Shown piece after piece: positions 36,223 through 63,512 of a stretch of 64,000 nucleotides of DNA. A program made the position numbers and the translations under genes. The stretch lies in assembly GCA_003605055.1 (NCBI GenBank), contig QZKP01000020.1, positions 1-64,000 on the forward strand. Reading direction: 5' to 3'. The stretch is from Desulfarculus sp. (GTDB taxonomy: Bacteria > Desulfobacterota > Desulfarculia > Desulfarculales > Desulfarculaceae). The notes below the pieces were generated by a model, which had not been told where the DNA came from, did no database searches, and saw only the letters and a list, made by a program, of their open reading frames with translations. Numbering within the stretch: position 1 is the stretch's first letter; the number at the start of each line of letters is the position of its first letter.

Positions 36223-37266
36223 TCAGGCCCCCACCGCCTGGGCCGGGCGGCCCTGGCCCCGGGCCGCCAGGGTCTCCAGCTTGGCCAGGGCCGCGCCGCT
36301 GTCTATGGCCCGGGCGGCCAGCTTTATGCCCTCAAGCAGGTCCGCCGCCCGGCCGGCGGCCACCAGGGCCGCGCTGGCGTTGGCCAGCACCAGGTCGCGC
36401 CGGGGGCCGGGCTCGCCGCGCAGCACGGCCAGGGTCAGGGCCGCGTTGCGCTGGCTGTCTCCGCCCTGCACCGCCTGGGCGCCGGCCCGGCGCAGGCCCA
36501 GGTCCTCGGGCGAGATGACCAGCTTCTCCACCCGCCCCTGCTGCAAACGAGCCATCAAGGTGGGGCCGCTGAGGCTGATCTCGTCCAGGCCGCCGTGGCC
36601 GTGCACCACAAAGGCGCTGGCGCAGCCCAGGCGGCCCAGCACCCGGGCCAGGGGCTCCACCAGGGCCGGATCGTACACTCCCACCACCTGCACGTCGGCC
36701 CCGGCCGGGTTGGTCAGGGGCCCCAGCAGGTTGAATATGGTGCGCAGGCCGATCTCCCGGCGAGGGCCGATGGCGTGGCGCATGGCCTGGTGCAAGGCCG
36801 GCGCGAAGAGAAAGCCGATGCCCGCCTCCTCTATGCAGCGGCCCACCTCCTCGGGGCTCAGGTCCAGGGGCACGCCCAGGGCCTCCAGGAGGTCGGCGCT
36901 GCCGCAGCGGCTGGAGACCGAGCGATTGCCGTGCTTGGCCACGTGCAACCCGGCCCCGGCCACCACCAGGGCCGCGGTGGTGGAGACGTTGAAGGTGCCG
37001 GCGCCGTCGCCGCCGGTGCCGCAGGTGTCCACCAGGGGCTCCCCCGGCGGCAGGCGGCAGGGCACCGGCCGGCTCTTGGCCCGCATCACCTGGGCCGCGC
37101 CGGTGATCTCCTCCACGCTCTCGCCCTTCAGGCGCAGGGCCACCAGCAGGGCCGCGATCTGGGCGGGGGTGGCCTCGCCTTCCATGATCTGGGTCATGGC
37201 CCGGATCATCTCCTCCTGGGTGAGGTCCTCGCCCTGCACCGCCTTGGCGATCACCTCCTGTATCAT
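36223..37266 (-). CDS. trpD: Anthranilate phosphoribosyltransferase
   Basis: A 347-residue enzyme that joins anthranilate and PRPP. The PRPP loop GTGGDG (83-88) with NVST follows, and [36 protein letters not shown] and the C-terminal domain are all present. It is not fused to TrpG; a separate trpG lies 10 kb upstream with trpE. It is the first gene of the trpDCFBA block, and its ATG follows GGAGGAG. Two tandem WRWWR leader/terminator modules precede it, which indicates tryptophan-controlled transcription of this block independent of trpEG. Confidence 0.96.
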
Positions 37267-37301
37267 CTCGCTCCTCCGCGTTTGTGAGTCTCAACAAAAT
37301 C

Positions 37302-37337
37302 AAAAAGGCCGGGACAGCCTTTGGTCTGTCCTCGGCC
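37302..37337 (-). terminator. trpD attenuator terminator 2
   Basis: On the minus strand GGCCGAGGACAG (37337-37326) pairs with CTGTCCCGGCC (37317-37307), with one bulged A and loop ACCAAAGG. TTTTTGATTTT follows. It ends 36 bases before the trpD start. The competing antiterminator partner GGTCTGTCC lies in leader peptide 2. Confidence 0.9.
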
Positions 37338-37383
37338 TCGGGAGCGCCCGGCTGCCCATGAGCGGCCTAGGGCGGGACAGACC
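37326..37383 (-). promoter_or_regulatory. trpD attenuator 2 antiterminator pairing
   Basis: GGTCTGTCC in codons 24-26 of leader 2 (minus 37383-37375) is perfectly complementary over 9 bases to GGACAGACC, which includes the 5' arm of terminator 2 (minus 37331-37323). It begins 17 bases after the last Trp codon of the WRWW run. A ribosome stalled there would leave it free, while one at the stop codon would cover it. This is the classical attenuation geometry. Confidence 0.8.
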
Positions 37384-37453
37384 TCTGCCCGCAAAAGCGC
37401 CACCACCGCCAGGCGATGATGGGAAGGGCTGGTTTAAAGGTCGAGGTCTGCAT
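37367..37453 (-). CDS. trpL: trpD leader peptide 2 (WRWWRF)
   Basis: A 28-codon ORF, ATG at 37453 and TAG at 37369-37367. Residues 15-20 read WRWWRF, giving three Trp codons within four. It lies between terminator 1 and terminator 2, in front of trpD, and contains the antiterminator strand just downstream of the Trp codons. The ribosome-binding site is weak (a GCGG run), which may be normal for a leader. The peptide itself probably has no function beyond stalling. Its WRWWR core is identical to that of leader 1, suggesting duplication or strong selection. Confidence 0.85.
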   Translation of the reverse strand: MQTSTFKPALPIIAWRWWRFCGQRSVPP

Positions 37454-37475
37454 GTCCGCCGCCGCTGTCAGGGCC

Positions 37476-37517
37476 AAAGAAAAAGGCCGTGAACCTGTCT
37501 GGGTCGGGTCCACGGCC
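37476..37517 (-). terminator. trpD attenuator terminator 1
   Basis: On the minus strand GGCCGTGGACC (37517-37507) pairs with GGTTCACGGCC (37495-37485), 11 bp with one G-U. TTTTTCTTT follows. It sits after leader 1 and before leader 2. GGGTCGTCC in leader 1 (minus 37573-37565) can pair with GGACCCGACCC of the terminator arm and loop (9 bp with a 2-base bulge), a candidate antiterminator. Confidence 0.88.
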
Positions 37518-37545
37518 TGGGGTTTGTTGGGGTGGCTTGTGCTGC

Positions 37546-37617
37546 TCAGACCACCGCGGCGCGGGGACGACCCGGGAAGCGAATCCGCCACCAGCGCCAA
37601 GAGGTGCCAAGCTGCAT
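37546..37617 (-). CDS. trpL: trpD leader peptide 1 (WRWWR)
   Basis: A 23-codon ORF, ATG at 37617 and TGA at 37548-37546, starting 15 bases after the tyrA stop with GAGGAAGG as ribosome-binding site. Residues 7-11 read WRWWR. It is followed by terminator 1. The good ribosome-binding site, the Trp cluster in a 23-residue peptide, the proximity to an intrinsic terminator and a complementary strand just downstream of the Trp codons all support a trp leader. Confidence 0.88.
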   Translation of the reverse strand: MQLGTSWRWWRIRFPGRPRAAVV

Positions 37618-37632
37618 AAAATGCCTTCCTCT

Positions 37633-38484
37633 TCAAGAAGCGTCTCCTGTTTTGTATACCAAATGGGGGGCCGCGTCAAGCCCGGGGCCGAGTTTGTCCC
37701 CGCGCAAAAACGACCCCACCTCCTCCATCAGCCGGACCAGCCCGCCGCGGTCGCCGCTGGCCAGGCAGCCGGTCACCTCGGCCAGGCTCTGGCCCAGGAC
37801 CCGCATGGCCTCGGGCCCGGCCGGGTTGTGCAGGGCCAGGTCCGCGTAGAGCTCCGGCGGCTGGCGGAGCTGGTGGGCCAACATGCCCATGATGCCTTGA
37901 AACCAGGGGCCGGAGCGCTCCAGGTCCTGGGCCGGGTCAAAGCCCAGGCGCATCAGGGCCCGGCCCAGGCCCACCAGCAGCAGGTGGCGCAGGGTCTGCA
38001 CCTGGGCCATGAGCCGGTCGTGGCGTTCGGCCTCCATCTGCACCACCTGCATGCGGCCTTCCTTGAGCAGGTTCATCAGCCAGCCCAGCCAGCGGCTCCC
38101 CCGGCCGGGGCAAACGAAGACCAACTGCCCGGCCAGGGAGCGGGTGGCCGGCCCGAACAGGGGGTGCGTGCCGATCACCTCGCCCTTGGCGTGGGCCAGC
38201 ATGCTGGCCAGGGGCCCGGCCTTGAGCGAGGCGATGTCCATCACCAGGTGCTCCGGGCGGGTCAGGGGGCCGATGGCGGCCATGACCTTCTCCACCGCCG
38301 CCACCGGCACGGCCAGGATCAGCACCTGGCAGGCCTGCACGAAGCCCGCCCCCAAGGGGCCCTCGCTCAGGTCGGCGATGCTCACCGCGTGGCCGCTGTG
38401 GCGCAGGCGGCGCTCCAGCCAGCGCCCCATGCGGCCGCGGCCGCCGATGATGCCTATGGACGGTCTAAATGGCGCGACCTCCAT
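37633..38484 (-). CDS. tyrA: Prephenate dehydrogenase
   Basis: A 283-residue NAD(P)-dependent enzyme of tyrosine synthesis. The Rossmann motif is IGIIGGRGRMGRWL, followed by VLILAVPVAAVEKVM, DIASLKAG (with Ser-Leu-Lys at the substrate site) and GTHPLFGPATRSLAGQ, the prephenate-binding signature. It has no ACT or chorismate mutase domain; the mutase is in PheA. ATG at 38484 follows GGAGAGGAG. The last gene of the aroF2-pheA-tyrA block. Confidence 0.93.
   Translation of the reverse strand: MEVAPFRPSIGIIGGRGRMGRWLERRLRHSGHAVSIADLSEGPLGAGFVQACQVLILAVPVAAVEKVMAAIGPLTRPEHLVMDIASLKAGPLASMLAHAKGEVIGTHPLFGPATRSLAGQLVFVCPGRGSRWLGWLMNLLKEGRMQVVQMEAERHDRLMAQVQTLRHLLLVGLGRALMRLGFDPAQDLERSGPWFQGIMGMLAHQLRQPPELYADLALHNPAGPEAMRVLGQSLAEVTGCLASGDRGGLVRLMEEVGSFLRGDKLGPGLDAAPHLVYKTGDAS
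37653..37679 (-). promoter_or_regulatory. Possible internal promoter for the trpD block
   Basis: On the minus strand TTGACG (37679-37674) and TATACA (37658-37653) are separated by 15 bases, within the 3' end of tyrA. Transcription would start about 30 bases before leader 1, the same distance seen for the promoters before the other two leaders. The short spacing makes it tentative. Confidence 0.4.
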
Positions 38485-38522
38485 TTTCTCCTCTCCTGTG
38501 CGGTCCAGAGGGTTGAGCCCGC

Positions 38523-39665
38523 TTACATTCCCGGCAGCGACTGGCCCCGGGGATAGGAGCCCAGCACCTTGAGGAACTCCACCTCCGGCCGCATGGCCGC
38601 CAGGGCCGGGGCCAGGCGGGCATCCTGGCGGTGGCCCTGGCAGTCCACGAAAAAGGCGTACTCCCAGGGCCGGTCCTTGATGGGCCGGGACTGGATGTGG
38701 GTCAGGTTCACGCCCCGCCGCGCCAGGTGGCCCAGGGACCGGCAGAGAGCGCCCGGCCGGTGGTCCAGCCCGAAAAACAGCGAGGTCTTGTCCTGGCCGG
38801 TGGGCGGACAGGGCCGCCGGCCCAGGATCAGAAAGCGGGTGGTGTTCAGCGGGCTGTCCTGGATGTCCGCGGCCAGCATGTTGAGCTGGTAGTGCTGGGC
38901 GGTGAGCGCGCTGCCCACCGCCGCCCCGCCCGGCTCCTGGGCGGCCAGAAGGGCCGCGGCCGCAGTGCTGGCCGCCTCCCGCAGCTCGGCCTGGGGCAGC
39001 CGGCGGCGCAGCCAGCCGCGGCACTGGTGCAGGGCCTGGGGGTGGGAGTGCACCCGCGTCACGTAGGCCAACTCGGCCTCGCGGGACATCAAGACGTGCC
39101 CCACCCGGGCGTAGATCTCCCCGCACACGTTCAGGCGCGAGGTCATGAGCGTATCCAGGGTCTCGTTCACCCCGCCCTGGCTGGAGTTCTCCACCGGCAC
39201 CACCCCCAGGGGGCTGCGGTTGGCCTCCACCTCGGCGAAGACCTCGGCGATGCTTTCCTGGGGGTCGTACTCGCAACTGCGGCCGAAGTGGCTCAGGGCC
39301 GCCTGGTGGCTGAAGGTGTGCTCCGGCCCCAGGAAGGCCACCCGCAGGGGCTCCTGCACCTGGCGGCAGGCGGAGATGATCTCCCGGAAGATGTGGCGCA
39401 GCGACTCCGCGGCCAGGGGGCCGCCGTTGTCCTGGCCGAGGGCCTCCAGCACCTGAGCCTCGCGCTCGGGCACAAACAGGGGTTGGTCGCCGGCGGCCTT
39501 GTACTGGGCGATGGCCTGGGCCTGCTGGGCCCGCTGGTTCAAGAGCTCCTGCAGGGAGCGGTCGATCTCATCAATCTTCTGCCGGGCCTGGGCCAGGGCC
39601 TGCTGGGACCAGTCCGCCTCGCTGGGCTGGATCAGGCCGGTCTCGGGGGAGGAGTTGGCTGGCAT
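38523..39665 (-). CDS. pheA: Bifunctional chorismate mutase/prephenate dehydratase (P-protein)
   Basis: A 380-residue protein with an AroQ-type chorismate mutase (about 20-105: ARQKIDEIDRSLQELLNQRAQQAQAIAQYK), a prephenate dehydratase (about 108-285: VAFLGPEHTFSHQAA, VVPVENSSQGGVNETLD, NTTRFLILG) and an ACT regulatory domain (about 295-370: LFFGLDHRPGALCRSLGHLARRGVNLTHIQSRPI). ACT suggests Phe feedback inhibition; the usual ESRP is QSRP here. ATG at 39665 has GAGGTGGG upstream. It supplies prephenate for TyrA as well as phenylpyruvate. Confidence 0.95.
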   Translation of the reverse strand: MPANSSPETGLIQPSEADWSQQALAQARQKIDEIDRSLQELLNQRAQQAQAIAQYKAAGDQPLFVPEREAQVLEALGQDNGGPLAAESLRHIFREIISACRQVQEPLRVAFLGPEHTFSHQAALSHFGRSCEYDPQESIAEVFAEVEANRSPLGVVPVENSSQGGVNETLDTLMTSRLNVCGEIYARVGHVLMSREAELAYVTRVHSHPQALHQCRGWLRRRLPQAELREAASTAAAALLAAQEPGGAAVGSALTAQHYQLNMLAADIQDSPLNTTRFLILGRRPCPPTGQDKTSLFFGLDHRPGALCRSLGHLARRGVNLTHIQSRPIKDRPWEYAFFVDCQGHRQDARLAPALAAMRPEVEFLKVLGSYPRGQSLPGM

Positions 39666-39706
39666 ATCCCACCTCACGCTTTCTAAAGAAAAAACCAGGG
39701 GCTGGC

Positions 39707-40582
39707 CTACGCCCGCAGGGGCAGCAGGCTGCGCAAGAGGTTCAGCTCGGCCATGAGCCGGCTGAACTCCTCGGGCCGCAGGGACTGCTCGCCGTCGCAG
39801 AGGGCGTCCTCGGGCCGGTGGTGCACCTCCACCATCACCCCGTCGGCCCCCACCGCCAGGGCGGCCCGGGCCAGGGGCCCCACCCAGCGGCGCTGGCCCA
39901 CGGCGTGGCTGGGGTCCACGATTACCGGCAGATGGGTCATCTCCTTGAGCACGCACACCGCGCTCAAATCCAAGGTGTTGCGCGTGGCGGTCTCGAAGGT
40001 GCGGATGCCCCGCTCGCAGAGGATCACCTGGGAGTTGCCCTCGGCCATGATGTACTCGGCCGAGAGCAAGAGCTCCTTGACCGTGGTCATCAGGCCGCGC
40101 TTGAGCAGCACCGGCTTGCGGCAGCGCCCCACCTTCTTGAGCAGGGAGAAGTTCTGCACGTTGCGGGCCCCCACCTGGATGATGTCCGCGCAGGCCTCCA
40201 CCAGCTCCAGCTCGGCGCTGTCCATCACCTCGGTGACCACCGGCAGGCCGGTCAGCTCCCGGGCCCTGGCCAGCAGCTCCAGCCCTTCGGGGCCCAGACC
40301 CTGGAAGCTGTAGGGCGAGGAGCGCGGCTTATAGGCGCCGCCCCGGAGCACCCCGGCCCCGGCCCGCTTGACCGCCTGGGCGGTGGCCATGAGCTGCTGA
40401 TAGCTCTCCACCGAGCAGGGACCGGCGATGACCACGAAGCCGCCTCCTCCGATCTGCACCCCGGGCAGGGAGATCACCGTGTCCTGGCGGTGCCATTGCC
40501 GGCTGGCCAGGTCCTGCGGCAGCGGCCCGGCCTGCGCGGCCGTCCCCGCCAACTTCTCTATCTCCGCTCTCGCCTGTATCAC
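39707..40582 (-). CDS. aroF: 3-deoxy-7-phosphoheptulonate synthase, type Ib, short form
   Basis: A 291-residue DAHP synthase of the AroFI-beta/KDO8P-synthase-like class: [71 protein letters not shown] and [12 protein letters not shown]. It lacks most of the N-terminal ferredoxin-like regulatory domain found in the paralogue at 46060-47097. GTG start at 40582 after GGAGGG. It begins the Phe/Tyr block, directly after a Phe/Tyr leader and attenuator, so it is probably the DAHP synthase tuned to Phe/Tyr demand. Confidence 0.93.
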
Positions 40583-40640
40583 CGCAACCCTCCATCCATC
40601 TCGCGGCCTGGGCGCCGCCGCCGGCCCGTTTGCCCAGAAC

Positions 40641-40681
40641 AAAAAAGGCCATGGGCGGCTTTTCGTCCGCCCATGGCCTTT
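40641..40681 (-). terminator. aroF2-pheA-tyrA attenuator terminator
   Basis: On the minus strand AAAGGCCATGGGCGG pairs with CCGCCCATGGCCTTT over 15 bp (forward 40644-40658 with 40667-40681), with an 8-base loop and TTTTTT following. This is the strongest intrinsic terminator in the window. It sits 59 bases before the aroF2 start. Confidence 0.93.
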
Positions 40682-40740
40682 GGTTTTGGCTTTTTTGCTA
40701 AGCTAGCTTAGTCTTCGGCCTCCCCGCGCCACGGACGGAC
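40655..40740 (-). promoter_or_regulatory. aroF2-pheA-tyrA antiterminator pairing
   Basis: GTCCGTCCGTGGC in codons 32-36 of the leader (minus 40740-40728) nearly repeats the terminator 3' arm sense. It can pair over 13 bases, two of them G-U, with GCCATGGGCGGAC that includes the terminator 5' arm. It starts 6 bases after the last codon of the Phe/Tyr run. Stalling within that run would favour the antiterminator; reading to the stop codon would favour the terminator. Confidence 0.8.
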
Positions 40741-40833
40741 GGCGGCAAAATAATAAAAGCTAAAATAGAAATAGCTCCGCCCGGGAAGCTGCTTCCCAGG
40801 TTGGCCAAAACTATTTGCCGCTGTCTTGGTCAT
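40708..40833 (-). CDS. Phe/Tyr leader peptide (YFYFSFYYF)
   Basis: A 41-codon ORF, ATG at 40833 and TAA at 40710-40708. Residues 21-29 read YFYFSFYYF: four Tyr and four Phe codons in nine. The terminator begins 27 bases after the stop codon. The ribosome-binding site (AGAGG) is close and weak. It precedes the DAHP synthase, P-protein and prephenate dehydrogenase genes, whose end products are exactly Phe and Tyr. In enterics pheL contains a Phe run; a mixed Phe/Tyr run fits a block that makes both. Confidence 0.9.
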   Translation of the reverse strand: MTKTAANSFGQPGKQLPGRSYFYFSFYYFAAVRPWRGEAED

Positions 40834-40868
40834 GGCCTCTGTTCTCTAGGGTCGCCGATTATTCTTTT

Positions 40869-40896
40869 ACTATATGCCTTTTATTGCCGCTGTCAA
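40869..40896 (-). promoter_or_regulatory. Sigma70-type promoter for the Phe/Tyr block
   Basis: On the minus strand TTGACA (40896-40891), a 16-base spacer and TATAGT (40874-40869) form a near-consensus promoter in an AT-rich stretch just after aroQ. Transcription would begin about 30 bases before the leader ATG. Hence the aroF2-pheA-tyrA block probably has its own promoter plus attenuator. Confidence 0.75.
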
Positions 40897-40938
40897 CGGC
40901 ATTTTTCGCTACCCGGCCCGCTTTCACCTGCTTTTTTG

Positions 40939-41379
40939 CTAGGCCGAGCGGCTGCCTTCCTGGGCGAACCACCACAGGGCCAGGGCATAGGAGCGCCAGC
41001 CGAAGCCCGCCACCGAGCCCTGGCACACCTCGGCCAGCAGCGACACCCGCCGGAACTCCTCGCGGGCCTGGGGGTTGCTCAGGTGCACCTCCACCACCGG
41101 CGCCCCGCAGCAGGCCACCGCGTCGCGCATTGCCACGCTGGTGTGGGTGTAGGCCCCGGCGTTGAGCACCACGCCCTCGGCCTCTTGCCCGGCCCGCTGC
41201 AGGGCCTCCACCAGCTCGCCCTCGTGGTTGGACTGGAAGAAGCTCAGCTCCAGGCCCAGCCCGTGGGCCAGCTCTTGCAGGCGCTCGTTGATCTCCGCGA
41301 GCGTCAGGCTGCCGTAGTGCCTGGCTTCGCGCCGGCCCAGCATGTTCAGGTTGGGCCCGTTGATCACCGCGATCTTCAC
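40939..41379 (-). CDS. aroQ: Type II 3-dehydroquinate dehydratase
   Basis: A 146-residue type II dehydroquinase that forms 3-dehydroshikimate. VINGPNLNMLGRREARHYGSLTL carries the catalytic Tyr22 and Arg loop; FFQSNHEGELVEAL, NAGAYTHTSVAMRDA and EVHLSNPQAREEFRR complete the active site. The ATG overlaps the aroC stop. It ends the trpE-aro block. Confidence 0.95.
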   Translation of the reverse strand: MKIAVINGPNLNMLGRREARHYGSLTLAEINERLQELAHGLGLELSFFQSNHEGELVEALQRAGQEAEGVVLNAGAYTHTSVAMRDAVACCGAPVVEVHLSNPQAREEFRRVSLLAEVCQGSVAGFGWRSYALALWWFAQEGSRSA

Positions 41380-42437
41380 AGCGCCGCTCCTCTCTGGGTC
41401 CCCTGGGCCAGCCAGGCGTCGGCCAGCACCAGGGCGGCCATGGCCTCGGCCACCGGCGCCACCCGCGGGCAGAGGCAGGGGTCGTGGCGGCCCTGGATGC
41501 GTATGCGCCGGGGCCGGCCCTTGAGGTCTATAGTCTGCTGCTCCCGGGCGATGGAGGGCGTGGGCTTGATTGCCAGGCGCAGCCGGATGTCCTGGCCGGT
41601 GGAGATGCCGCCCAGGATGCCGCCGCAGTGGTTGCTCAAGAACCCCTCCGCCCCCATCTGGTCGTTGTTCTCCGAGCCCCGGCGGCCGGCGGCGGCGAAG
41701 CCGTCGCCGATCTCCACGCCCTTGACCCCGCCGATGGAGAGCATGGCCCCGCCCAGGGCCGCGTCCAGCTTGTCCATGACCGGGTCGCCCAGGCCGGCGG
41801 GCACGCCTTGGGCAAGCAGCTCCACCACCCCGCCCATTGAGTCGCCCTGGGCCCGGGCCGCCTGCACCTGCTCGACCATGGCCGCGGCGGCCTGGGGGTC
41901 GGCGCAGCGCAGGGGGTCGCTAAAGGCGAAGGCCAGGTCCACCCGCGAGGCCCGCACCGGGCCGATGGCCAGGGTGTAGGCCTGTACGGTCACGCCCAGG
42001 GGCGCCAGCAGGGCCCGGGCCACGGCCCCGGCCGCCACCCGGCCCACCGTCTCCCGGCCCGAGGCCCGGCCTCCGCCGGGCTGCGGCGCCAGGCCGTATT
42101 TCTGGTAGTAGGTGTAGTCCGCGTGGCCGGGCCGGAACACCTCGGCCAGGGTCTGGTAATCGCCGGAGCGGGCGTCCTGGTTGCGCACCAGCAGGGCGAT
42201 GGGCGAGCCCATGGTCTTGCCCTGGGCCAGGCCCGAGAGTATCTCCACCCGGTCCGGCTCCTGGCGGGCCGAGGTCAGCGGCGAGGCGCCGGGCCGGCGG
42301 CGGTCCAGGTCGGCCTGGATCGTGGCCGCGTCCAGGGCCAGGCCGGCGGGCACGCCCTCCAGCACCACGCCCACGGCCGGGCCGTGGGACTCGCCGAAGG
42401 TGGCCGCGCGCAAATATCTGCCGAAGATGCTGCCCAT
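41376..42437 (-). CDS. aroC: Chorismate synthase
   Basis: A 353-residue FMN-dependent enzyme that converts EPSP to chorismate, the branch-point compound. Signatures: RYLRAATFGESHGPAVG at the N-terminus, GKTMGSPIALLVRNQD, PGHADYTYYQKYG, GGGRASGRETVGRVAAGAVA, and GGILGGISTGQDI. It starts 1 base after the aroKB stop. Expected to be a tetramer in the cytosol. Confidence 0.96.
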   Translation of the reverse strand: MGSIFGRYLRAATFGESHGPAVGVVLEGVPAGLALDAATIQADLDRRRPGASPLTSARQEPDRVEILSGLAQGKTMGSPIALLVRNQDARSGDYQTLAEVFRPGHADYTYYQKYGLAPQPGGGRASGRETVGRVAAGAVARALLAPLGVTVQAYTLAIGPVRASRVDLAFAFSDPLRCADPQAAAAMVEQVQAARAQGDSMGGVVELLAQGVPAGLGDPVMDKLDAALGGAMLSIGGVKGVEIGDGFAAAGRRGSENNDQMGAEGFLSNHCGGILGGISTGQDIRLRLAIKPTPSIAREQQTIDLKGRPRRIRIQGRHDPCLCPRVAPVAEAMAALVLADAWLAQGTQRGAAL

Positions 42438-42438
42438 G

Positions 42439-43998
42439 CTAGCCTCTCTTCACCGCGTCAATGGCCTTTTGCAACTCGGCCGGCCGCACGTCCTCGGCCA
42501 CCAGCGGCCGGCCCGGGCCGGCCAGGAGCACGAACACCACCTTGCCGCCGCAGTTCTTCTTGTCGCTCTGCATGAGCGGCCAGGCCTCGGCCGCCGGCGG
42601 CAGCACCAGCTTCTTGGGCAGCAGCGGCTGCAAGGCGCTGTGTATGCGGCCGGCGGCCTCGCCCTGGAGCAGGCCCCGCCGGTCCGAGAGCGCCGCGGCC
42701 ACCATGATGCCCGCGGCCACCGCCTGCCCGTGGCTGAGGCCGAAGCGGCTCAGGCCCTCCAGGGCGTGGCCGTAGGTGTGGCCCAGGTTGAGGATGCGCC
42801 GGCGGCCGCCCTCCCTAAAGTCCTCGGCCACCACCGCGGCCTTGGCCCGGGCGGCCAGCCCGGCCACCTGGGCCAGGCCCAGCAGGTCGCCGCGCAGCAG
42901 GGAGTCCATCTCCGCCTCCACCCGCCGGGCCAGGGCCGGCGCGGCCACCAGGCCGGTCTTGTAGGCCTCGGTCAGGCCCTCGGCGATCTGGGGCCGGGCC
43001 AGGGTGGCCAGGGACTTCAGGTCCAAGAGCACCGCCTGGGGCCGAGTAAACAGGCCCACCTGATTCTTGGCCGGCCCCAGGTCCACCGCGGCCTTGCCGC
43101 CCACGGCCGCGTCCACGCAGCCCAGCAGGGTGGTGGAGGCCAGGACGAAGGGCAGGCCCCGCTTGTAGGTGGCGGCCACGAAGGCCCCCAGGTCCGTGAC
43201 CACCCCGCCGCCCAGGGCCACCAGCAAATCGCCGCGTTCGATGCCCGCCTGCAACATGGCCTTGTAGATGCGCTCGGCGCTGCGCAGGGTCTTGCTGCGC
43301 TCGCCGGCCGGGAGGGCGATGACCAGGGGCTCGTCCAGGGGAGCGCGGTAGCGGGCCAGATGCAGGCGGGCCAGCTTGCGGTCGGTGAGCAGCACCGCCC
43401 GGCGGCCGGCCGCCAGTTCGGCCAGGACCCGCGGCCCCTGCCAAGTGCTTATCACCGGACAGTCCACGCCGTCCAGGGAGACGTTGAAGCGCTCGTCGGG
43501 CAGCAGAGCAACGGCGATGGCCTCGGCCAACTGCTGCGGCCCGTTGCCGTCCACGGACACCTTGAGGTCATGGTCGGCGTAGGCCTGCTGCCGGCTGGCG
43601 AACAGCGCGGCCAGGCCGGCCGGGTCCTGCCAGAGGGGCCGCTTCTTCACCTCGCTGGGCCCCAGGTGGCGGCGGCAGACGGCCAGGCTGGCCTCCAGGA
43701 AGATGATGCGGCCCGAGGCGCGCATGAGCCGGCGGTTGGCCGCCCGCTGGGGCAGACCGCCGCCGGTAGCCACCACCAGGCCCCGCCGCTGAGCCACGGA
43801 CCGCAGCTCCGCGGTCTCCAGGCGGCGGAAGGCCTCCTCGCCTTGCTCGGCGAAGACCTGGGCCACGGACCGGCCCAGGCGGCGGGAGATGCTGCGGTCC
43901 AGGCTGAGGAAGCGGCGGCCCAGCGCCTGAGCCAGGGCCCGCCCCACCGTGGACTTGCCCGCGCCCATGAAGCCGGTGATGTAGAGATTGTCCTTCAC
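42439..43998 (-). CDS. aroKB: Shikimate kinase fused to 3-dehydroquinate synthase
   Basis: A 519-residue fusion. Residues 1-165 are shikimate kinase: Walker A GFMGAGKST (9-17), EEAFRRLE and ATGGGLPQR. Residues from about 180 are 3-dehydroquinate synthase: AGERSKTL, VALGGGVVTDLGAFVAATYKRGLPFVLASTTLLGCVDAAVGGK split across the NAD and metal regions, and the Zn site NLGHTYGHALE. The two enzymes act at steps 5 and 2 of the pathway, so the fusion does not join consecutive steps. GTG start at 43998 overlaps the aroE stop. Confidence 0.94.
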   Translation of the reverse strand: MKDNLYITGFMGAGKSTVGRALAQALGRRFLSLDRSISRRLGRSVAQVFAEQGEEAFRRLETAELRSVAQRRGLVVATGGGLPQRAANRRLMRASGRIIFLEASLAVCRRHLGPSEVKKRPLWQDPAGLAALFASRQQAYADHDLKVSVDGNGPQQLAEAIAVALLPDERFNVSLDGVDCPVISTWQGPRVLAELAAGRRAVLLTDRKLARLHLARYRAPLDEPLVIALPAGERSKTLRSAERIYKAMLQAGIERGDLLVALGGGVVTDLGAFVAATYKRGLPFVLASTTLLGCVDAAVGGKAAVDLGPAKNQVGLFTRPQAVLLDLKSLATLARPQIAEGLTEAYKTGLVAAPALARRVEAEMDSLLRGDLLGLAQVAGLAARAKAAVVAEDFREGGRRRILNLGHTYGHALEGLSRFGLSHGQAVAAGIMVAAALSDRRGLLQGEAAGRIHSALQPLLPKKLVLPPAAEAWPLMQSDKKNCGGKVVFVLLAGPGRPLVAEDVRPAELQKAIDAVKRG

Positions 43999-44816
43999 GC
44001 CACCCCCTCCAAGGCCCGCTGGAAGCTGGCCAGGGGCACCTCCCGGCCGGTCCAGATGAAAAAGCTCAGCCGGGCCTGGCAGGCCAGCATGGCCAGGCCG
44101 TCGCAAAAGGCCGCGCCGGAGGCGGCGGCCAGCCGGGCCCAGATATTCTCCGCCCGGCCGTAGTTGATGTCCATCACCAGCCCACAGCGGCTGTCCAGGC
44201 AGAGGCCCAGGGCAAAGGCGGCCATGGCCGGCGACTCGGCCGGGCTGGAGACGCTGGTGGCGTTGACGATCAGCTCCGCCTGGCCGGCCACCGCGGCCGC
44301 CTGAGCGAGGTCCAGGGGTTCGCCGCCCAGGCGCTCGGTCAGGGCCCGCGCCCGCCGGGGGCTGCGGCCGGCCACCTGCACCGAGGCCGCGCCCTGCTCG
44401 TGCAGGGCCTGCACCACGGCCCGGGCCGCGCCGCCGGCCCCCAGCACCAGGCAGCGCCGGCCGCCGGCCGCGAAGCCGGCCTGGCCCAGGGCCTGGGCAA
44501 ATCCGTCCACGTCGGTGTTGTGGCCTTCCAGCACGCCGCGCCGGAGGGCCAGGGTGTTCACCGCGCCCAGGGCCGCGGCCTGGGGCGTAAGCTCCTCGGC
44601 CAGGGCCGCGGCCGCCTCCTTGTGCGGCACGGTGACGTTGACCCCGGTCAGGCCCAGGGCCCGCAGCCCGGCCAGGGCCGCGGCCAACTGGTCCGGCTGT
44701 ACGGCAAAGGGCAGGTACACCCCGTCCAGGCCCAGCTCGGCCAGCACCGCGTTGTGCATGGCCGGCGACAGGGAGTGGGCCGCCCGAGCATCGCTTATGA
44801 CGCCCAAGAGCATCAT
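43995..44816 (-). CDS. aroE: Shikimate dehydrogenase
   Basis: A 273-residue NADP-dependent enzyme that reduces 3-dehydroshikimate. HSLSPAMHNA, GVNVTVPHKEAAA (catalytic Lys), GHNTDVDGFAQAL (catalytic Asp), and the NADP motif VLGAGGAARAV with AGRSPRRARAL are present. Two consecutive ATG codons exist; the first at 44816 overlaps the aroA stop and lies 10 bases after GGAGG. Confidence 0.94.
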   Translation of the reverse strand: MMLLGVISDARAAHSLSPAMHNAVLAELGLDGVYLPFAVQPDQLAAALAGLRALGLTGVNVTVPHKEAAAALAEELTPQAAALGAVNTLALRRGVLEGHNTDVDGFAQALGQAGFAAGGRRCLVLGAGGAARAVVQALHEQGAASVQVAGRSPRRARALTERLGGEPLDLAQAAAVAGQAELIVNATSVSSPAESPAMAAFALGLCLDSRCGLVMDINYGRAENIWARLAAASGAAFCDGLAMLACQARLSFFIWTGREVPLASFQRALEGVA

Positions 44817-46063
44817 GACAGTAGCGCCTCCAAGGTTTCCGCGAAGCCGGGGTAGGAGATGGCCACGCACTCCTGGCCGGCGATGGCCGGCCGCGCCCCG
44901 GCCAGCAGCCCGGCCAGGCGCAGGGTCATGGCCATGCGGTGGTCGCCCAAGCTGTCCAGGTCCTCCGGGGCGCGCAGCGGGGTGGGGCCTTCCACCACCA
45001 AATCCTCGCCGCGCACCCGCAGCCGGGCGCCCAGGGCCCCCAACTGGCTGACCAGGGCGGCCAGGCGGTCGGTCTCCTTGAGGCGCAGCTCGCCCACCTG
45101 CTCGAACACGGCGACCCCCCGCGCCTGAGTGGCGGCCAAGGCCAGGACGGGCACCTCGTCCACCAGCAGGCCGATCTCCCCGGCCGTTACCCGGCAGCCG
45201 GTCAGCTCCGGCGAATAGGCCGCCCGCACCCGCCCCCAGGGCTCGGGCTCCGCGCCCTGCTCCTCCACCTGCACCCGGGCCCCCATGCGCGCAAGCACGC
45301 TCAGGAAGCCGGTGCGGGTGGGGTTGAGCAGCACGCCCTCGGCCGTCACCTCGCTGCCGGGGATGATCGCGGCCGCGCAGAGGAAGAAGGCCGCCGAGGA
45401 GGCGTCGCCCGGCACGCGCAGGGCCGCGGGCAGGGTCAGTTCCGAAGGCTCCAGCCGCCAGATGCCGGCCTCGCCGGTGATGTCGGCCCCGCACAGGGCC
45501 AGCAGGCGCTCGGTGTGGTCGCGGCTGGGGGCCGGCTCCAGCACGGTGGTGGCGCCCGCAGCGCGCAGGCCGGCCAACAGGACGGCGCTCTTGAGCTGGG
45601 CGCTGGCCACGGGCAGATGGTACGCGATGCCTTTAAGCCCGCCGCCAATCACCCGCACCGGCGGCCGGCCGTCGCGGCACTCAACCGCGGCCCCCATCCG
45701 CCTCAGCGGCGCGGCCACCCGCTCCATGGGCCGGCGGGAAAGGGACTCGTCGCCGCTCAGGGTGAAGCGTCCGCGCACCCCGGCCAACAACCCCATGAGC
45801 AGGCGCATGGTGGTGCCCGAGTTGCCGCAGTCCAGATAGGCCTGCTCCTTCAGGCGCCCGCCCATGCCCTCCAGCCAAAGCTCGCCGTTTTGCCGTCGCA
45901 CGGACCCCCCCAGGGCCTCCACCGCGGCCAGGGTGGAGGCGCAGTCCTGCCCCGGGGCGTAGTTGCTCACCCGGCAGGCGCCCGCGGCCAGCAGCGACAG
46001 GAGCCCGATGCGGTGGGAGATGGACTTGTCCCCCGGCGGGCTGAAGGAGCCTTGGAGTTTCAT
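44813..46063 (-). CDS. aroA: 5-enolpyruvylshikimate-3-phosphate synthase
   Basis: A 416-residue enzyme that joins shikimate 3-phosphate and [62 protein letters not shown] and [14 protein letters not shown] (catalytic Asp and Glu) all fit. The PEP loop has [10 protein letters not shown], Gly retained as in the common glyphosate-sensitive layout. The start overlaps the upstream DAHP synthase stop (ATGA). Confidence 0.96.
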
Positions 46064-47097
46064 GCCGCCGCCCCCAGACCGCGGCCCAGGGCCGCGGCCA
46101 CCTTTTTCAGATCAGCCATCATGTCCGCGAAGGCCTCCGGGGTCAGGCTCTGGCGGCCGTCGGAAAAGGCGCGCTCAGGGTCGGCGTGCACCTCCACCAT
46201 CACCGCGTCGGCCCCGGCGGCCACCGCCGCCCGGGCCAGGGCCGGCACCAGCTCGCGCTTGCCCGCGGCGTGGCTGGGGTCCACCAGCACCGGCAGGTGG
46301 GTGTGCTGCTTGAGCAGGGGCACCGCCGAGATGTCCAGGGTGTTGCGGGTCTCGGTCTCGAAGGTGCGCACCCCGCGCTCGCAGAGGATCACCTGCCAGT
46401 TGCCCCGGGCCAGGATGTACTCGGCCGAGAGCAAAAGCTCCTTGATGGTGGCCATCAGACCGCGCTTGAGGAGCACCGGCTTGTCCACCTCGCCCACCGC
46501 CTCCAAGAGGGCGAAGTTCTGCATGTTGCGGGTGCCGATCTGCAAGACGTCGGCGTAGCGGGCCACCAGCTCCACGTCGCTGGCCCGCAGCACCTCGGTG
46601 ACGATGGGCAGGCCGGTGATCTCACGGGCCTCGGCCATGATCTTCAGGCCCTCCTCGCCCAGGCCCCGGAAGGAGTAGGGCGAGGTGCGCGGCTTGAAGG
46701 CCCCGCCCCGCAGCACCCCCGCCCCCAGGGGGGCCAGGCGCTGGGCCAGCTCCAGGTAGCCCTGGCGCGACTCCACGGCGCAGGGCCCGGCCATCACCAC
46801 CACCTCGCGGCCGCCGATGCTGCCCCGGCCCAGCTTGATGCTGGTGGTCTGGGCGCGGAAGTTGCGGGAGACCAGCTTCCAGGAGGTGCCGAAGCGGTTG
46901 ATCTCCTCCACCCCGGCCAGGCGGCTGATCTGGGCGGTCAGCTCCTCGGCCAGGGCCTGGCTGATCTCCTCCACCACCCCCAGCACCACCTGGGGGCCGG
47001 GCGAGATGATGCGCGGCTCCAGGCCGCGCTGGCGCAGGGCGGAGATGACCAGGGCCACCTCGCCCTTCTGACAACCCTCGCGCATGCCGATGACCAT
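46060..47097 (-). CDS. aroF: 3-deoxy-7-phosphoheptulonate synthase, type Ib with N-terminal regulatory domain
   Basis: A 345-residue DAHP synthase. Residues 1-80 form a ferredoxin-like domain ([20 protein letters not shown], then [20 protein letters not shown]), as in Thermotoga-type enzymes where it mediates Tyr/Phe inhibition. The catalytic domain has [63 protein letters not shown] and [12 protein letters not shown]. It is closely related to the short paralogue at 39707-40582, so the supraoperon carries two, one per control block. Confidence 0.94.
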
Positions 47098-47111
47098 GGC
47101 CGCGCCTCCGG

Positions 47112-47717
47112 CTAGGACCCGGCCTGGGCCGCGGCCGTCCGCGCCCGGCCCAGGTAGAGGTCCAGGAAATTGGTGAAGATCATCATGCCCTGGTGGGTGG
47201 CGATGGACTCGGGGTGGAACTGCACGCCCTCCAGCATCAGCTCGCTGCTGCGCAGGCCCATCACCTCGCCCTCGCTGGTGTAGGCCGACACGCTCAGCGG
47301 CGGCCGCACGCTGGCCTCGGGCACGATCAGGGAGTGGTAGCGGGCGGCGGCGAAGGGGTTGCGCAGGCCGCTGTAAATGCCCTTGCCGTCGTGGAAGACC
47401 TGGCTGATCTTGCCGTGCACCGGCCGGTTGGCGCGCACCACCTGGGCTCCGAACACCTCGGCCAAGGCCTGGTGCCCCAGGCAGACCCCCATGATGGGCA
47501 TCCTGCCTGCGAAGCGCTCGATGGCCGCGCAGGTGATGCCAGAGTCCTCGGGCCGGCCGGGGCCGGGGGAGATGAAGATGGCCTCGGGCGCCAGGTCCTG
47601 TATCTCCTGCAGGCCGATGGCGTCGTTGCGCCGCACCTCCAGGCTGCGGCCCAACACGCCCAGGGCCTGGGCGATGTTGTAGGTGAAGGAGTCGTAATTG
47701 TCTATCAAGAGGATCAT
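47112..47717 (-). CDS. trpG: Anthranilate synthase component II, glutamine amidotransferase
   Basis: A 201-residue class I amidotransferase that supplies ammonia to Trp[26 protein letters not shown], nucleophile Cys79 in [10 protein letters not shown], and the His-Glu of [13 protein letters not shown] are intact. The same protein could also serve PabB, as in many bacteria with one copy. The start overlaps the trpE stop (ATGA). Confidence 0.95.
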
Positions 47718-49099
47718 AGCGAGGCCTCCGCCGCCGCGCGCAGGGCGGCGATGCCCTGGGCGGCCTTGTGCTGGATCTCGGCGTACTCCATCTCGGGCAG
47801 GGAGTCGGCCACGATGCCCGCCCCGGCTTGCAGGGTCACCTGGTCGCCCTGGAACTGGATCATGCGGATGGCGATGCAGGTGTCCATGCGCGGGCCGGGC
47901 CCGAAGCAGCCCACCGCCCCGGCGTAGGGGCCGCGGGGCAGCGCCTCCAGCTCGTCTATGATCTGGGCGGCCCGCACCTTGGGCGCGCCGGAGACGGTGC
48001 CGGCCGGGAAGCCGGCCCGGAAGGCGTCCCAGGCGTCCAGGCCCGGGCGCAGGCGGCCGGTGACCTCCGAGACGATGTGCATCACGTGGCTGTAGCGCTC
48101 CACGGCCATGTAGGGCTCCACCGCCACCGAGCCGTACTCGGCCACCCGGCCCACGTCGTTGCGGGCCAGGTCCACCAGCATGATGTGCTCGGCCCGCTCC
48201 TTTTCCGAGGCCATCAGCTCCCGCTCCAGCTCCTGATCCCGCCGGGGGTCGGCCGAGCGGCCGCGGGTGCCGGCCAGGGGCCGGATCTGCACCCGGCCGG
48301 CCTCGGTCTTGACCAGGGTTTCGGGCGAGGCCCCCACCAGGCGCAGGTCGTCCAGGTGCAGGAAGAACATGTAGGGCGAGGGGCTTTTCACCCGCAGCCA
48401 GCGGTACACGGTCAGCGGGTCCAGATCGCTTTGGCCGCGGAACTGGTCGGAGAGCACCACCTGGAAGATGTCCCCGGCCAGGATGTATTCCTTGGCCCGT
48501 CGCACCGCCTCCTGGAAGCGCTCCCGGGGCGGGTCGCTGATGCTGAGCTGGGCCAGGCGGCCGCTGATCCGCAGCGGGTGGCGCAGACGGTCCTCGATAT
48601 CGGCCAGCCGGGCCTGGGCCGCGGCCTGGTCGCGGTCAATGCCCACCAGGGTCATGGTGCGCTGCAGGTGGTCAAAAACCAGGAAGCTGGCCGGGAAGCA
48701 GAGGTCGGCGATGGGCAGCTCCTGGGCCGGGGCCGGGCCCAGGGGCTCGATGAGCCGCAGGGCGTCGTAGCCCACATAGCCCAACAGCGAGCCCACGAAG
48801 GGCAGGTCCGGCAGGCCCTGGCAGTCCAGCTCGCCCAGGACCCGGCGGGCCAGGGCGAAGAACTCGGCCGGCGCGTGGCGGCTGGCCTGGCCGCCCTGAT
48901 CCAGCTCCAGGCGGTCGTGCCACAGGCGCAGGCGGCACAGCGGCTCCCAGGTCACGATGGAGTAGCGGCCCACGTTCTCGTGGGTCTCGCCGCTCTCGAA
49001 GAGAAACGAACAGCTCTGGCCGCGGCAGAGCTTCAGATAGGCCGACACCGGCGTCTCCACGTCGGCCAGCAAGTTTTTGGTCGCCGCCTGCAAGGACAT
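47714..49099 (-). CDS. trpE: Anthranilate synthase component I
   Basis: A 461-residue chorismate-utilising enzyme. The N-terminal domain has [19 protein letters not shown], the counterpart of the LLES tryptophan-inhibition motif. The catalytic domain shows [67 protein letters not shown] and [14 protein letters not shown]. With TrpG it makes anthranilate from chorismate. It is the first gene of an eight-gene block and lies downstream of a FFSYYWW leader and terminator. Confidence 0.96.
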
Positions 49100-49116
49100 A
49101 CCAGGCCTTTCGCCCC

Positions 49117-49148
49117 AAATAAAAAACCCACCGTCCGGCGACGGTGGG
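49117..49148 (-). terminator. trpE attenuator terminator
   Basis: On the minus strand CCCACCGTC (49148-49140), loop GCCG and GACGGTGGG (49135-49127) form a 9-bp GC-rich hairpin followed by TTTTTTATTT. It lies between the leader stop codon and the trpE start, ending 18 bases before the ATG. Confidence 0.93.
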
Positions 49149-49208
49149 CTGTGTGCTTTGGGGTGCTGGGGTTTCTAGCTACGCCACTTAGGCACCGGCT
49201 CCACCGTC
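49140..49208 (-). promoter_or_regulatory. trpE antiterminator pairing
   Basis: GACGGTGG in leader codons 36-39 (minus 49208-49201) repeats the terminator 3' arm and can pair over 8 bases with CCACCGTC of the 5' arm. It starts 12 bases after the second of two adjacent Trp codons. Ribosome stalling at the Tyr-Tyr-Trp-Trp run leaves it free; translation to the stop codon at 49175 masks it. Confidence 0.8.
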
Positions 49209-49315
49209 ACGGGTGAGCTCCACCAATAGTAGCTAAAGAACAGGGGCAGCGCGGCGGCCAGGCTCAACAGGGTGGCCTGCAACAGGGAGATCAGGTTGTG
49301 CCCGCCGTGAAACAT
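49175..49315 (-). CDS. trpL: Aromatic leader peptide before trpE (FFSYYWW)
   Basis: A 46-codon ORF, ATG at 49315 and TAG at 49177-49175. Residues 26-32 read FFSYYWW, a run covering all three aromatic amino acids; a further Trp is at 44. It begins about 23 bases after a predicted transcription start and ends 27 bases before the attenuator hairpin. The downstream block makes chorismate plus anthranilate, the common supply for Phe, Tyr and Trp, so a triple-sensing leader is logical. The peptide is hydrophobic at residues 8-32 and could insert into a membrane, so a second role as a small membrane protein is possible. Confidence 0.85.
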   Translation of the reverse strand: MFHGGHNLISLLQATLLSLAAALPLFFSYYWWSSPVTVEPVPKWRS

Positions 49316-49344
49316 AACGCCCCATCCAAACAATCGTAAGCAAC

Positions 49345-49372
49345 TTTCTACGTCCCGGCGCGAATTTGTCAA
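49345..49372 (-). promoter_or_regulatory. Sigma70-type promoter of the trpE-aro block
   Basis: On the minus strand TTGACA (49372-49367), a 16-base spacer and TAGAAA (49350-49345) lie in a locally AT-rich stretch. The predicted transcript start, near 49338, leaves a short untranslated region before the leader ATG. Confidence 0.7.
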
Positions 49373-49762
49373 GGGGAAAAATTCATGCGCCTCGATTGCC
49401 GGCCCATTTGTCTTATAAAATCCAAATCCTATGCCGGTGGGCCCAGGGGTTGGCAGCTCCAGCCCTGACCAAGGGAGCCATCTCTGAGATAATAGAGTGG
49501 GCCAGGGGACCGCAGCCGCCGCTCTAAACCAGAGCCGGGGCAGGCCCGCCTGGGCGGCGGCGAGCGCGCCGGCCGCCACCCGGACAAGGAGGCGGCCAGG
49601 GCCAACCTGCGCTCCCTGGGCTACATGTAGCCTCTGCCCGGCTGGGCCCGGCTTGACAGGCGGCCGCCTCTCGCTTTAGAATGGAATAAATTAAATGAAA
49701 TCGTCTAGTTTCAGGATGGTAAGGACGCAACCCGGCCAGGGGGTTGGGGGCAGGAGTGTGCC
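49373..49762. other. Divergent region between the aromatic supraoperon and the CRP-family gene
   Basis: No complete gene is visible. On the plus strand a frame ending at the TAG at 49628-49630 finishes RANLRSLGYM, which resembles the C-terminal end of a larger protein. It has only 44 sense codons after an in-frame stop at 49493, and may be a gene remnant. The rest is AT-richer sequence on both sides with promoters at each end. Confidence 0.4.
49653..49682 (+). promoter_or_regulatory. Sigma70-type promoter of the CRP/FNR-family gene
   Basis: TTGACA (49653-49658) and TAGAAT (49677-49682) with an 18-base spacer. Transcription would start about 75 bases before the ATG at 49763. The spacer contains a GGCGGCCGCC palindrome. 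Confidence 0.65.
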
Positions 49763-62867: not shown

Positions 62868-63512
62868 TCAGTATCCCAGGTCCTCGCCCACCAGCAGCAC
62901 GTGGATGCGGCCCTCGATCATGTTGCCCTCGGTGATGGTCCATATGTTGCAGATGCGCTTGGGGCCGCGGCAGTCGTGGCAGAGCCCGTCCTCGGTGCAG
63001 GGGTTGGGCAGACCCAGGCGGATGTTGTTCACCGGCGCGGCGTAGTGCTTCACCCGGCTCAGGGCCGACTCCAGGTCCGCCACCACCTTGTTCATGCCCA
63101 CGATCAGGATCACCTTCTTGGGCCCGAAGCTCAGGGCCGCCACCCGGTTGCCCATGCCGTCAAGGTTCACCAGGCGGCCGTCCAGGGTGATGGCGTTGGT
63201 GCTGGCCACCATGAAGTCCGCGCTCAGGCCCCGGCGCCGCTCGGCCAGGCTCTCCTCGGGGGAGAAGCGGGGCAGGTAGGGGTTGATCACCTCCACCCCG
63301 CCCTTTTGGGCCAGGCGCTCCCAGAGCCCGGCGTAGGTGGCCGACATGGAGCCGCAGCGGAAGACCTGCGAGCCCTCGGGGATCATGGCCAGCGCCTGCT
63401 CCACGGCCTGGGCCGCGGAGGGGGCGAAGCTGGCCGCGAAGCGGCGCTTAGTCAACTGCTTGATCAGGTGCTGGGCGGTCTTCTGGTTCCAGGCGATCTG
63501 ATGCTCGTCCAT
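62868..63512 (-). CDS. LUD-domain protein (LutC/YkgG-like)
   Basis: A 214-residue LUD domain protein. GSMSATYAGLWERL, ADFMVASTNAITLDGRLVNLDGMGNRVAAL and KKVILIVGMNKVV are typical of lactate-utilisation proteins of the YkgG/LutC group. It also has a C-terminal cysteine cluster (Cx5Cx2Cx6C in CTEDGLCHDCRGPKRIC) suggesting metal binding. Usually encoded with LutA/LutB; those are not in the window. Confidence 0.8.
   Translation of the reverse strand: MDEHQIAWNQKTAQHLIKQLTKRRFAASFAPSAAQAVEQALAMIPEGSQVFRCGSMSATYAGLWERLAQKGGVEVINPYLPRFSPEESLAERRRGLSADFMVASTNAITLDGRLVNLDGMGNRVAALSFGPKKVILIVGMNKVVADLESALSRVKHYAAPVNNIRLGLPNPCTEDGLCHDCRGPKRICNIWTITEGNMIEGRIHVLLVGEDLGY

Follow-up and report, generated by a model that had tools for sequence, protein, structure and literature searches.

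The pheL and trpL leaders of Escherichia coli fold into alternative hairpins, one of them an intrinsic terminator. The aroR leader, located before aroF of Corynebacterium glutamicum, was reportedly described by Neshat et al. in 2014, and attenuators of proteobacteria are said to have been surveyed earlier by Vitreschak et al. (2004). In the literature that we searched, no account was found of a Phe/Tyr leader in the bacterial group studied here, nor were Trp leader-peptide attenuators in tandem described, or an operon divided up by matched leaders (the four-switch arrangement described below); the 2004 survey may list some of these leaders. Known attenuated operons have been tabulated (PMC1183508), as has a predicted RNA preceding Shewanella aroF, in a source that also mentions a Tyr-tRNA attenuator suggested earlier for E. 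coli (PMC2659441). The excerpted text of a survey of actinobacterial RNA elements makes no mention of aroF or pheA (PMC1262725), and that of a study of metal-reducing deltaproteobacteria mentions neither leader peptides nor aromatic amino acids (PMC545781).

We analysed a 64,000-nt stretch of DNA (the window), in which an element preceding the genes aroF2-pheA-tyrA very probably, judging by its sequence, controls transcription by ribosome-mediated attenuation in the manner of the E. coli trp and phe leaders. With the leaders of E. coli pheA (pheL) and trp (trpL) it shares a short ORF containing codons for the product amino acid before a biosynthetic gene (PMC11802643). Alternative hairpins and an intrinsic terminator are further common features. 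In contrast to them, it mixes Phe and Tyr codons, it is followed by a DAHP synthase gene and then by pheA and tyrA, its segment 1 overlaps with the start codon of the leader, and its pairing sequences differ. The closest tested relative is C. glutamicum aroR, likewise a Phe and Tyr leader peptide ahead of DAHP synthase, which according to the excerpted account responds to the limitation of Phe, not of Tyr (PMC11802643); a leader before aroF of this species has also been predicted (PMC4046766). Going by its description, aroR is set apart by its Phe-Tyr-Phe motif, compared with eight Phe or Tyr residues in nine codons here, and by its occurrence in another phylum. The uORFC-13-1 motif of Acholeplasma also consists of an upstream ORF with Phe codons, followed by a terminator, before aroF, and leader-peptide attenuation has been proposed for it; however, as described there, that ORF has at least one Phe codon, and the motif is confined to Acholeplasma and environmental sequences (PMC8632094). 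Since DAHP synthase leader peptides have already been published for C. glutamicum and Acholeplasma, the single element belongs to a known kind. What appears to be new, going by the literature searched, is the four-switch arrangement.

The gene order on the minus strand is trpE-trpG-aroF1-aroA-aroE-aroKB-aroC-aroQ, the leader, aroF2-pheA-tyrA, a gap, and trpD-trpC-trpF-trpB-trpA (coordinates of the leader elements and adjoining genes are collected in Table 1). In addition to the three genes directly behind the leader, NCBIfam named trpE, trpG, a second DAHP synthase (aroF1) and aroQ upstream, and trpD downstream; the names trpE, pheA and tyrA are best matches, and several matches lie under the curated cut-offs. 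The aroA, aroE, aroKB, aroC, trpC, trpF, trpB and trpA genes were labelled from ORF translations, gene order and coherent matches in relatives. The mechanically called aroF2 ORF begins at 40642, and its probable start is GTG 40582, with GGATGGAGGG upstream. The pheA domain match begins at about residue 117 of the mechanical ORF, and the real start of this gene lies downstream of 39956. In another genome of the same family (G009; loci L039 and L040) the trpE-aro block lies far from the aroF2-pheA-tyrA block on one contig.

Table 1. Leader elements and adjoining genes in the window
Feature	Coordinates	Strand	Basis or remark
-35 hexamer TTGACA, putative promoter of the aroF2-pheA-tyrA leader	40891..40896	-	consensus match only
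-10 hexamer TATAGT, same putative promoter	40869..40874	-	consensus match
Phe/Tyr leader peptide ORF, 41 aa, MTKTAANSFGQPGKQLPGRSYFYFSFYYFAAVRPWRGEAED	40708..40833	-	ATG 40833, TAA 40708; counterparts in relatives
Control codons YFYFSFYYF (codons 21-29)	40747..40773	-	
Segment 1, overlaps leader start codon; pairs with segment 2 (putative protector 1:2)	40814..40836	-	fold; family swap test
Segment 2, 13-mer GTCCGTCCGTGGC, 6 nt past last Phe codon	40728..40740	-	
Segment 3, terminator 5' arm	40667..40681	-	
Segment 4, terminator 3' arm	40644..40658	-	T run 40646-40641
aroF2, DAHP synthase	39707..40582	-	NCBIfam
pheA ORF, chorismate mutase-prephenate dehydratase	38523..39956	-	NCBIfam best match
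tyrA, prephenate dehydrogenase	37633..38553	-	NCBIfam best match
Phe+Tyr+Trp leader ORF before trpE, ending LFFSYYWWSSPVTVEPVPKWRS	49175..49315	-	
Terminator of trpE leader	49125..49150	-	segment 2 = 49211-49197
Promoter-like sequence of trpE leader: TTGACA (49372), 16 nt, TAGAAA (49350)	49345..49372	-	fails -10 rule of promoter scan
First Trp leader ORF before trpD, MQLGTSWRWWRIRFPGRPRAAVV	37546..37617	-	
Terminator of first Trp leader	37484..37518	-	segment 2 = 37574-37557
Second Trp leader ORF before trpD, MQTSTFKPALPIIAWRWWRFCGQRSVPP	37367..37453	-	
Terminator of second Trp leader	37305..37339	-	segment 2 = 37384-37368

The original prediction placed a promoter, a 41-codon ORF with the run YFYFSFYYF and a 15-bp terminator in a row before a block that makes both Phe and Tyr. 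All these parts are present, on the minus strand, and pheA and tyrA are indeed named downstream of the mixed run. The two promoter hexamers together match 11 of the 12 consensus positions, with a spacer of 16 nt, while 0.1 promoter-like sites are expected by chance (shuffles of 40000-41500). The start of the leader ORF is not in doubt, because an in-frame stop lies just upstream of its ATG and there is no other usual in-frame start downstream; its Shine-Dalgarno sequence, AGAGG, is a weak one and lies close to the ATG, at 2 nt. The terminator (40681-40644) consists of a 15-bp stem with an 8-nt loop, followed by a T run. In the antiterminator (2:3), GTCCGTCCGTGGC at 40740-40728 pairs with GCCATGGGCGGAC at 40677-40665, i.e. 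with segment 3 completed by adjoining loop bases, over 13 bp including two G-U pairs. The leader 13-mer had been described as a near-repeat of the terminator 3' arm with two G-U-tolerant differences; this holds for the 13-bp pairing with its two G-U pairs, but the repeat itself extends to only 11 of the 13 bases, those outside it pairing with bases of the loop and of the upper end of the 5' arm.

The pairing of the leader ORF with the terminator 5' arm reaches -30.6 kcal/mol, a value matched by none of 2000 dinucleotide shuffles of the leader, and folding of the whole window leader gives z = -5.7. No Rfam model (amino-acid leaders and T-box included) matched the window at its curated threshold, and at E values up to 10 the region 36800-49600 gave chance-level matches only, none of them to an amino-acid leader or T-box. 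A Brucella sRNA model scored 16 bits over 40646-40858, far under its threshold of 270, and was rejected.

An AroF2 search of 40 genomes yielded 30 loci, each of which was read on the strand of the gene. An upstream short ORF with at least five Phe or Tyr residues in eight precedes aroF2 in 28 of them. The exceptions are L024, which has 6 nt of upstream sequence only, and L017, which belongs to a different family of the order and whose genome yielded a weaker ORF, PYFYGVYPSAEEV, on a looser scan (L064). Such an ORF is likewise present in two genomes outside the 30 loci (L043 and L051), of which one belongs to the same family and the other to the class. The leader anatomy recurs before orthologous aroF2 genes of relatives in the same family; it also does so in a second family of the class, where the pairing sequences differ. 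A hairpin with a T-rich tail follows the leader stop in 28/28 leaders examined, although the hairpin and the duplex were targets of the search and the controls therefore weigh more than this count. A promoter with at least 9 of 12 matches precedes only 4 of the 17 leaders of the same family.

These 17 leaders served for the covariation alignment. Across the 17 sequences, 136/136 cells of the antiterminator core (GTCTGCCC with GGGCAGAC) are paired. The fourth pair of this core is U-A in 14 leaders; in the other three, which belong to three genera (L001, i.e. the window, L010 and L016), it is C-G, and this change falls at a segment 3 base lying outside the terminator stem. When three extra pairs are included (11 pairs), the 2:3 helix is 91.1% paired, compared with 31-40% when slid by 1-3 columns, and its covariation score was reached by none of 500 shuffles. 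In the terminator helix (3:4) pairing amounts to 94.1%, and two of the pairs show compensatory changes. The aligned leaders are related, so the shuffle numbers are not to be read as probabilities.

Whole-leader minimum free energy folds often masked the 1:2 and 2:3 alternatives, and direct segment tests were used instead, in which the pairing of each segment with its own partner was compared with its pairing with that of a relative (5000 permutations). In the family, the 2:3 pairing scored -29.2 with own and -27.5 with swapped partners, 1/5000 permutations being as good; for 1:2 the values were -30.2 and -26.5 (0/5000). The latter helix was tested by swapping segments and not by column counts, because segment 1 was misaligned in alignment A2, and its ranks against mononucleotide shuffles are weak in several single sequences (up to 54/200). 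The 11 leaders from the second family have quite different pairing sequences, e.g. GGTTTCGCC with GGCGAAACC and GGTATCG with CGATACC. Here too 2:3 prefers its own partner (30/5000 permutations as good), and the start-codon region of these 11 leaders gave no 1:2 signal in the swap test (2538/5000). The covariation across homologues proposed as a check of the original prediction is present in both helices, 2:3 and 3:4, and supports an attenuator with alternative pairing; in the family, the own-versus-swapped tests agree for 2:3 and 1:2.

The occurrence of such leaders beyond these genomes was assessed in 80 named loci (L067-L146), the best of 591 that encode this type of DAHP synthase; 40 of the 80 have an aromatic-dense short ORF within 700 nt upstream. 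A stricter count accepted only ATG starts and dropped three loci whose upstream sequence fell short of about 450 nt; it found leader-like ORFs in 38/77, compared with 5/77 on the reverse strand, 7/385 in shuffles and 11/385 at random places. According to the record titles, the loci with such an ORF span Syntrophaceae, Geobacteraceae, Clostridia, Lachnospiraceae, a spirochaete and others, and several deltaproteobacterial loci, e.g. L104, retain segment 2 GTCTGCCC together with the matching terminator arm. This suggests that aromatic-dense leaders of this kind are widespread in many phyla, and Phe/Tyr leader attenuation of DAHP synthase, with covariation, would extend well past the corynebacterial and Acholeplasma cases in print. 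In an Acidobacteria MAG (L109:1747-1839, plus strand) a YWWWY ORF is followed by a strong terminator and a complementary segment; this ORF looks like a Trp leader.

These counts also bear on the alternative that the hairpin merely terminates transcription of the upstream aro genes, the short ORF being a chance occurrence or an independent small protein. The hairpin does sit between two gene blocks and is terminator-like when read on the plus strand as well. Nevertheless, it lies downstream of the putative promoter and the leader, just ahead of aroF2, and a terminator needs no conserved complementarity at a fixed spacing to a Phe/Tyr run; nor would it account for the excess of leader-like ORFs before DAHP synthase over shuffles and random places. 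Given this complementarity, spacing and position, we rejected the plain upstream terminator, which we regard as highly improbable.

The geometry of the leader is consistent with attenuation. Segment 2 begins exactly 6 nt past the last codon of the run in 17/17 family leaders, and the distance from its core to the leader stop is 24 or 30 nt. In snapshot folding, with the ribosome edge set 9 nt past the A-site codon, all 13 antiterminator pairs form when the A site is at codons 21-28, 10 form at codon 29, and one or none from codon 32 onwards. In this model the control codons sit so that a stalled ribosome would leave segment 2 free. The codons themselves are unfavoured ones in a window with 70% G+C: TTT or TAT makes up 8 of the 9 Phe/Tyr codons of the window leader, compared with 30 of 150 in 13 cluster genes (Fisher test applied), and 117 of 143 in the 17 family leaders pooled.

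We infer that the leader senses both Phe and Tyr. It is nevertheless possible, though in our view less likely, that attenuation responds to Phe, or to slow translation of rare codons generally, the Tyr codons being passengers. Phe closes the run in all 17 family leaders, and the Phe-Tyr-Phe leader AroR of C. glutamicum is described, in the excerpted account, as answering to Phe and not to Tyr limitation (PMC11802643). On the other hand, Tyr is equally fixed at run position 8 (17/17), so that the last two residues are always Tyr then Phe, whereas Phe and Tyr interchange elsewhere in the run as if either could serve. Moreover, tyrA belongs to the block, and in the window leader segment 2 remains free with a stall at any of the Tyr codons 21, 23, 27 and 28.

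From the ORFs, control codons, terminators, complementarity, conservation and covariation present here, we infer promoter use, stalling, antitermination and the identity of the sensed amino acids as follows. The promoter would yield a leader RNA, over whose 41-codon ORF a ribosome trails RNA polymerase. When charged tRNA-Phe or tRNA-Tyr is scarce, the ribosome would slow at the TTT/TAT-rich codons 21-29 and leave segment 2 free as segment 3 appears; the 13-bp antiterminator could then form, the terminator would be blocked, and aroF2-pheA-tyrA would be transcribed. When Phe and Tyr are both ample, the ribosome would cover segment 2, the 3:4 hairpin would form and transcription would stop. If the leader is untranslated, segment 1 at the start codon may hold segment 2, again making 3:4 possible. 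As segment 1 covers the leader's own start codon, we suggest that a second ribosome loading at the start might occupy it while the first one stalls.

Two features of the folds qualify this mechanism. At equilibrium the full window RNA favours the terminator even with a stalled ribosome, and antitermination must therefore be kinetic, the antiterminator winning by forming first. Without a ribosome, the window RNA up to segment 3 favours 2:3 over 1:2, which makes the protector step uncertain; the putative role of segment 1 is backed by the swap test in the family and not by energy.

The leader ORF of the window also contains a Shine-Dalgarno-like GGAGG (40719-40723, minus strand). The motif is kept in 17/17 family leaders, 17 nt past the segment 2 start in 16 of them, lies outside the 2:3 helix, and is followed by no start codon in these leaders. 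Its retention, like the conservation in the family of the residues that follow the run (AVCPxxGE), would fit a peptide or terminated leader RNA that acts additionally in trans, the role reported for peTrpL of Sinorhizobium (PMC7298713). Much of this conservation is, however, accounted for by the RNA, GTCTGCCC being segment 2, and we consider such an additional trans function improbable.

The original prediction requires two amendments: the sensing of both Phe and Tyr is putative, and the Phe/Tyr leader has three companions, so that the cluster holds four such elements. The other three were found by scanning the window for terminators behind residue-rich short ORFs, and then the corresponding gaps of relatives. 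One precedes trpE and two lie in series before trpD, both of the latter containing WRWW. By its sequence, a promoter before the trpE leader is plausible. The promoter scan found none before trpD, so the two Trp leaders may act on read-through from tyrA. By the mechanism outlined above, these same-strand elements would likewise control trpE-trpG-aroF1-aroA-aroE-aroKB-aroC-aroQ and, two in series, trpD-trpC-trpF-trpB-trpA.

Serial arrangements of two regulatory elements before one operon are known from the tandem attenuators of Salmonella mgtCBR (PMC3641672) and from the tandem THI elements of Desulfovibrio, each with a terminator (PMC545781). In contrast to these, both elements here are Trp leader peptides, and they lie within a cluster of four elements.

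The sister elements recur in the family. Among the 13 loci with enough sequence (L042, L045 and L047 were left out, as the contig ends at or near trpE), the trpE leader contains Phe, Tyr and Trp in 11; the exceptions are L040 of G009, with Trp only, and L049, with no Tyr and a doubtful start. The gap before trpD holds two serial Trp leaders in nine of 13 family loci and one in four. A candidate terminator is present in every case, the weakest (-12.3 kcal/mol) belonging to the second Trp leader of L050. In the 2:3 swap tests, 1/5000 permutations were as good for the trpE group, 1/5000 for the second and 30/5000 for the first Trp leaders; in this last group several single sequences are mediocre against shuffles, including the window (35/200).

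Across the family, the leader residues agree with the products of the genes behind each leader. We consider it somewhat probable that the aromatic pathway of this family forms one strand-wise cluster split by four leader-peptide switches, whose codons constitute a product code: Phe, Tyr and Trp for the common pathway and trpEG, Phe and Tyr for aroF2-pheA-tyrA, and Trp, twice, for trpDCFBA. If so, the supply of the shared precursor would respond to each of the three amino acids, every branch would respond to its own, and control would not require a repressor protein. An entire branched pathway would then be governed by matched leader peptides, its control logic being legible from the sequence. 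Such a cluster would also offer naturally occurring sensors that read one, two or three residues with nearly the same architecture, plus the Trp tandem, which could tell whether mixed codons give OR logic and what tandem terminators add.

When both strands of the 64-kb window were searched for an aromatic-dense short ORF combined with a terminator and complementarity, five matches were obtained: the four leaders of the cluster and a weak one on the plus strand, at 63337. Among the best 80 of 591 loci, the four-element arrangement was found only in L067, which comes from a family genome. With both energies at -18 or better, the scan gave eight matches away from aroF in 1.33 Mb of the named loci, three of them being the L067 copies of the sister elements, compared with four in a stretch of about 12 kb inside the window.
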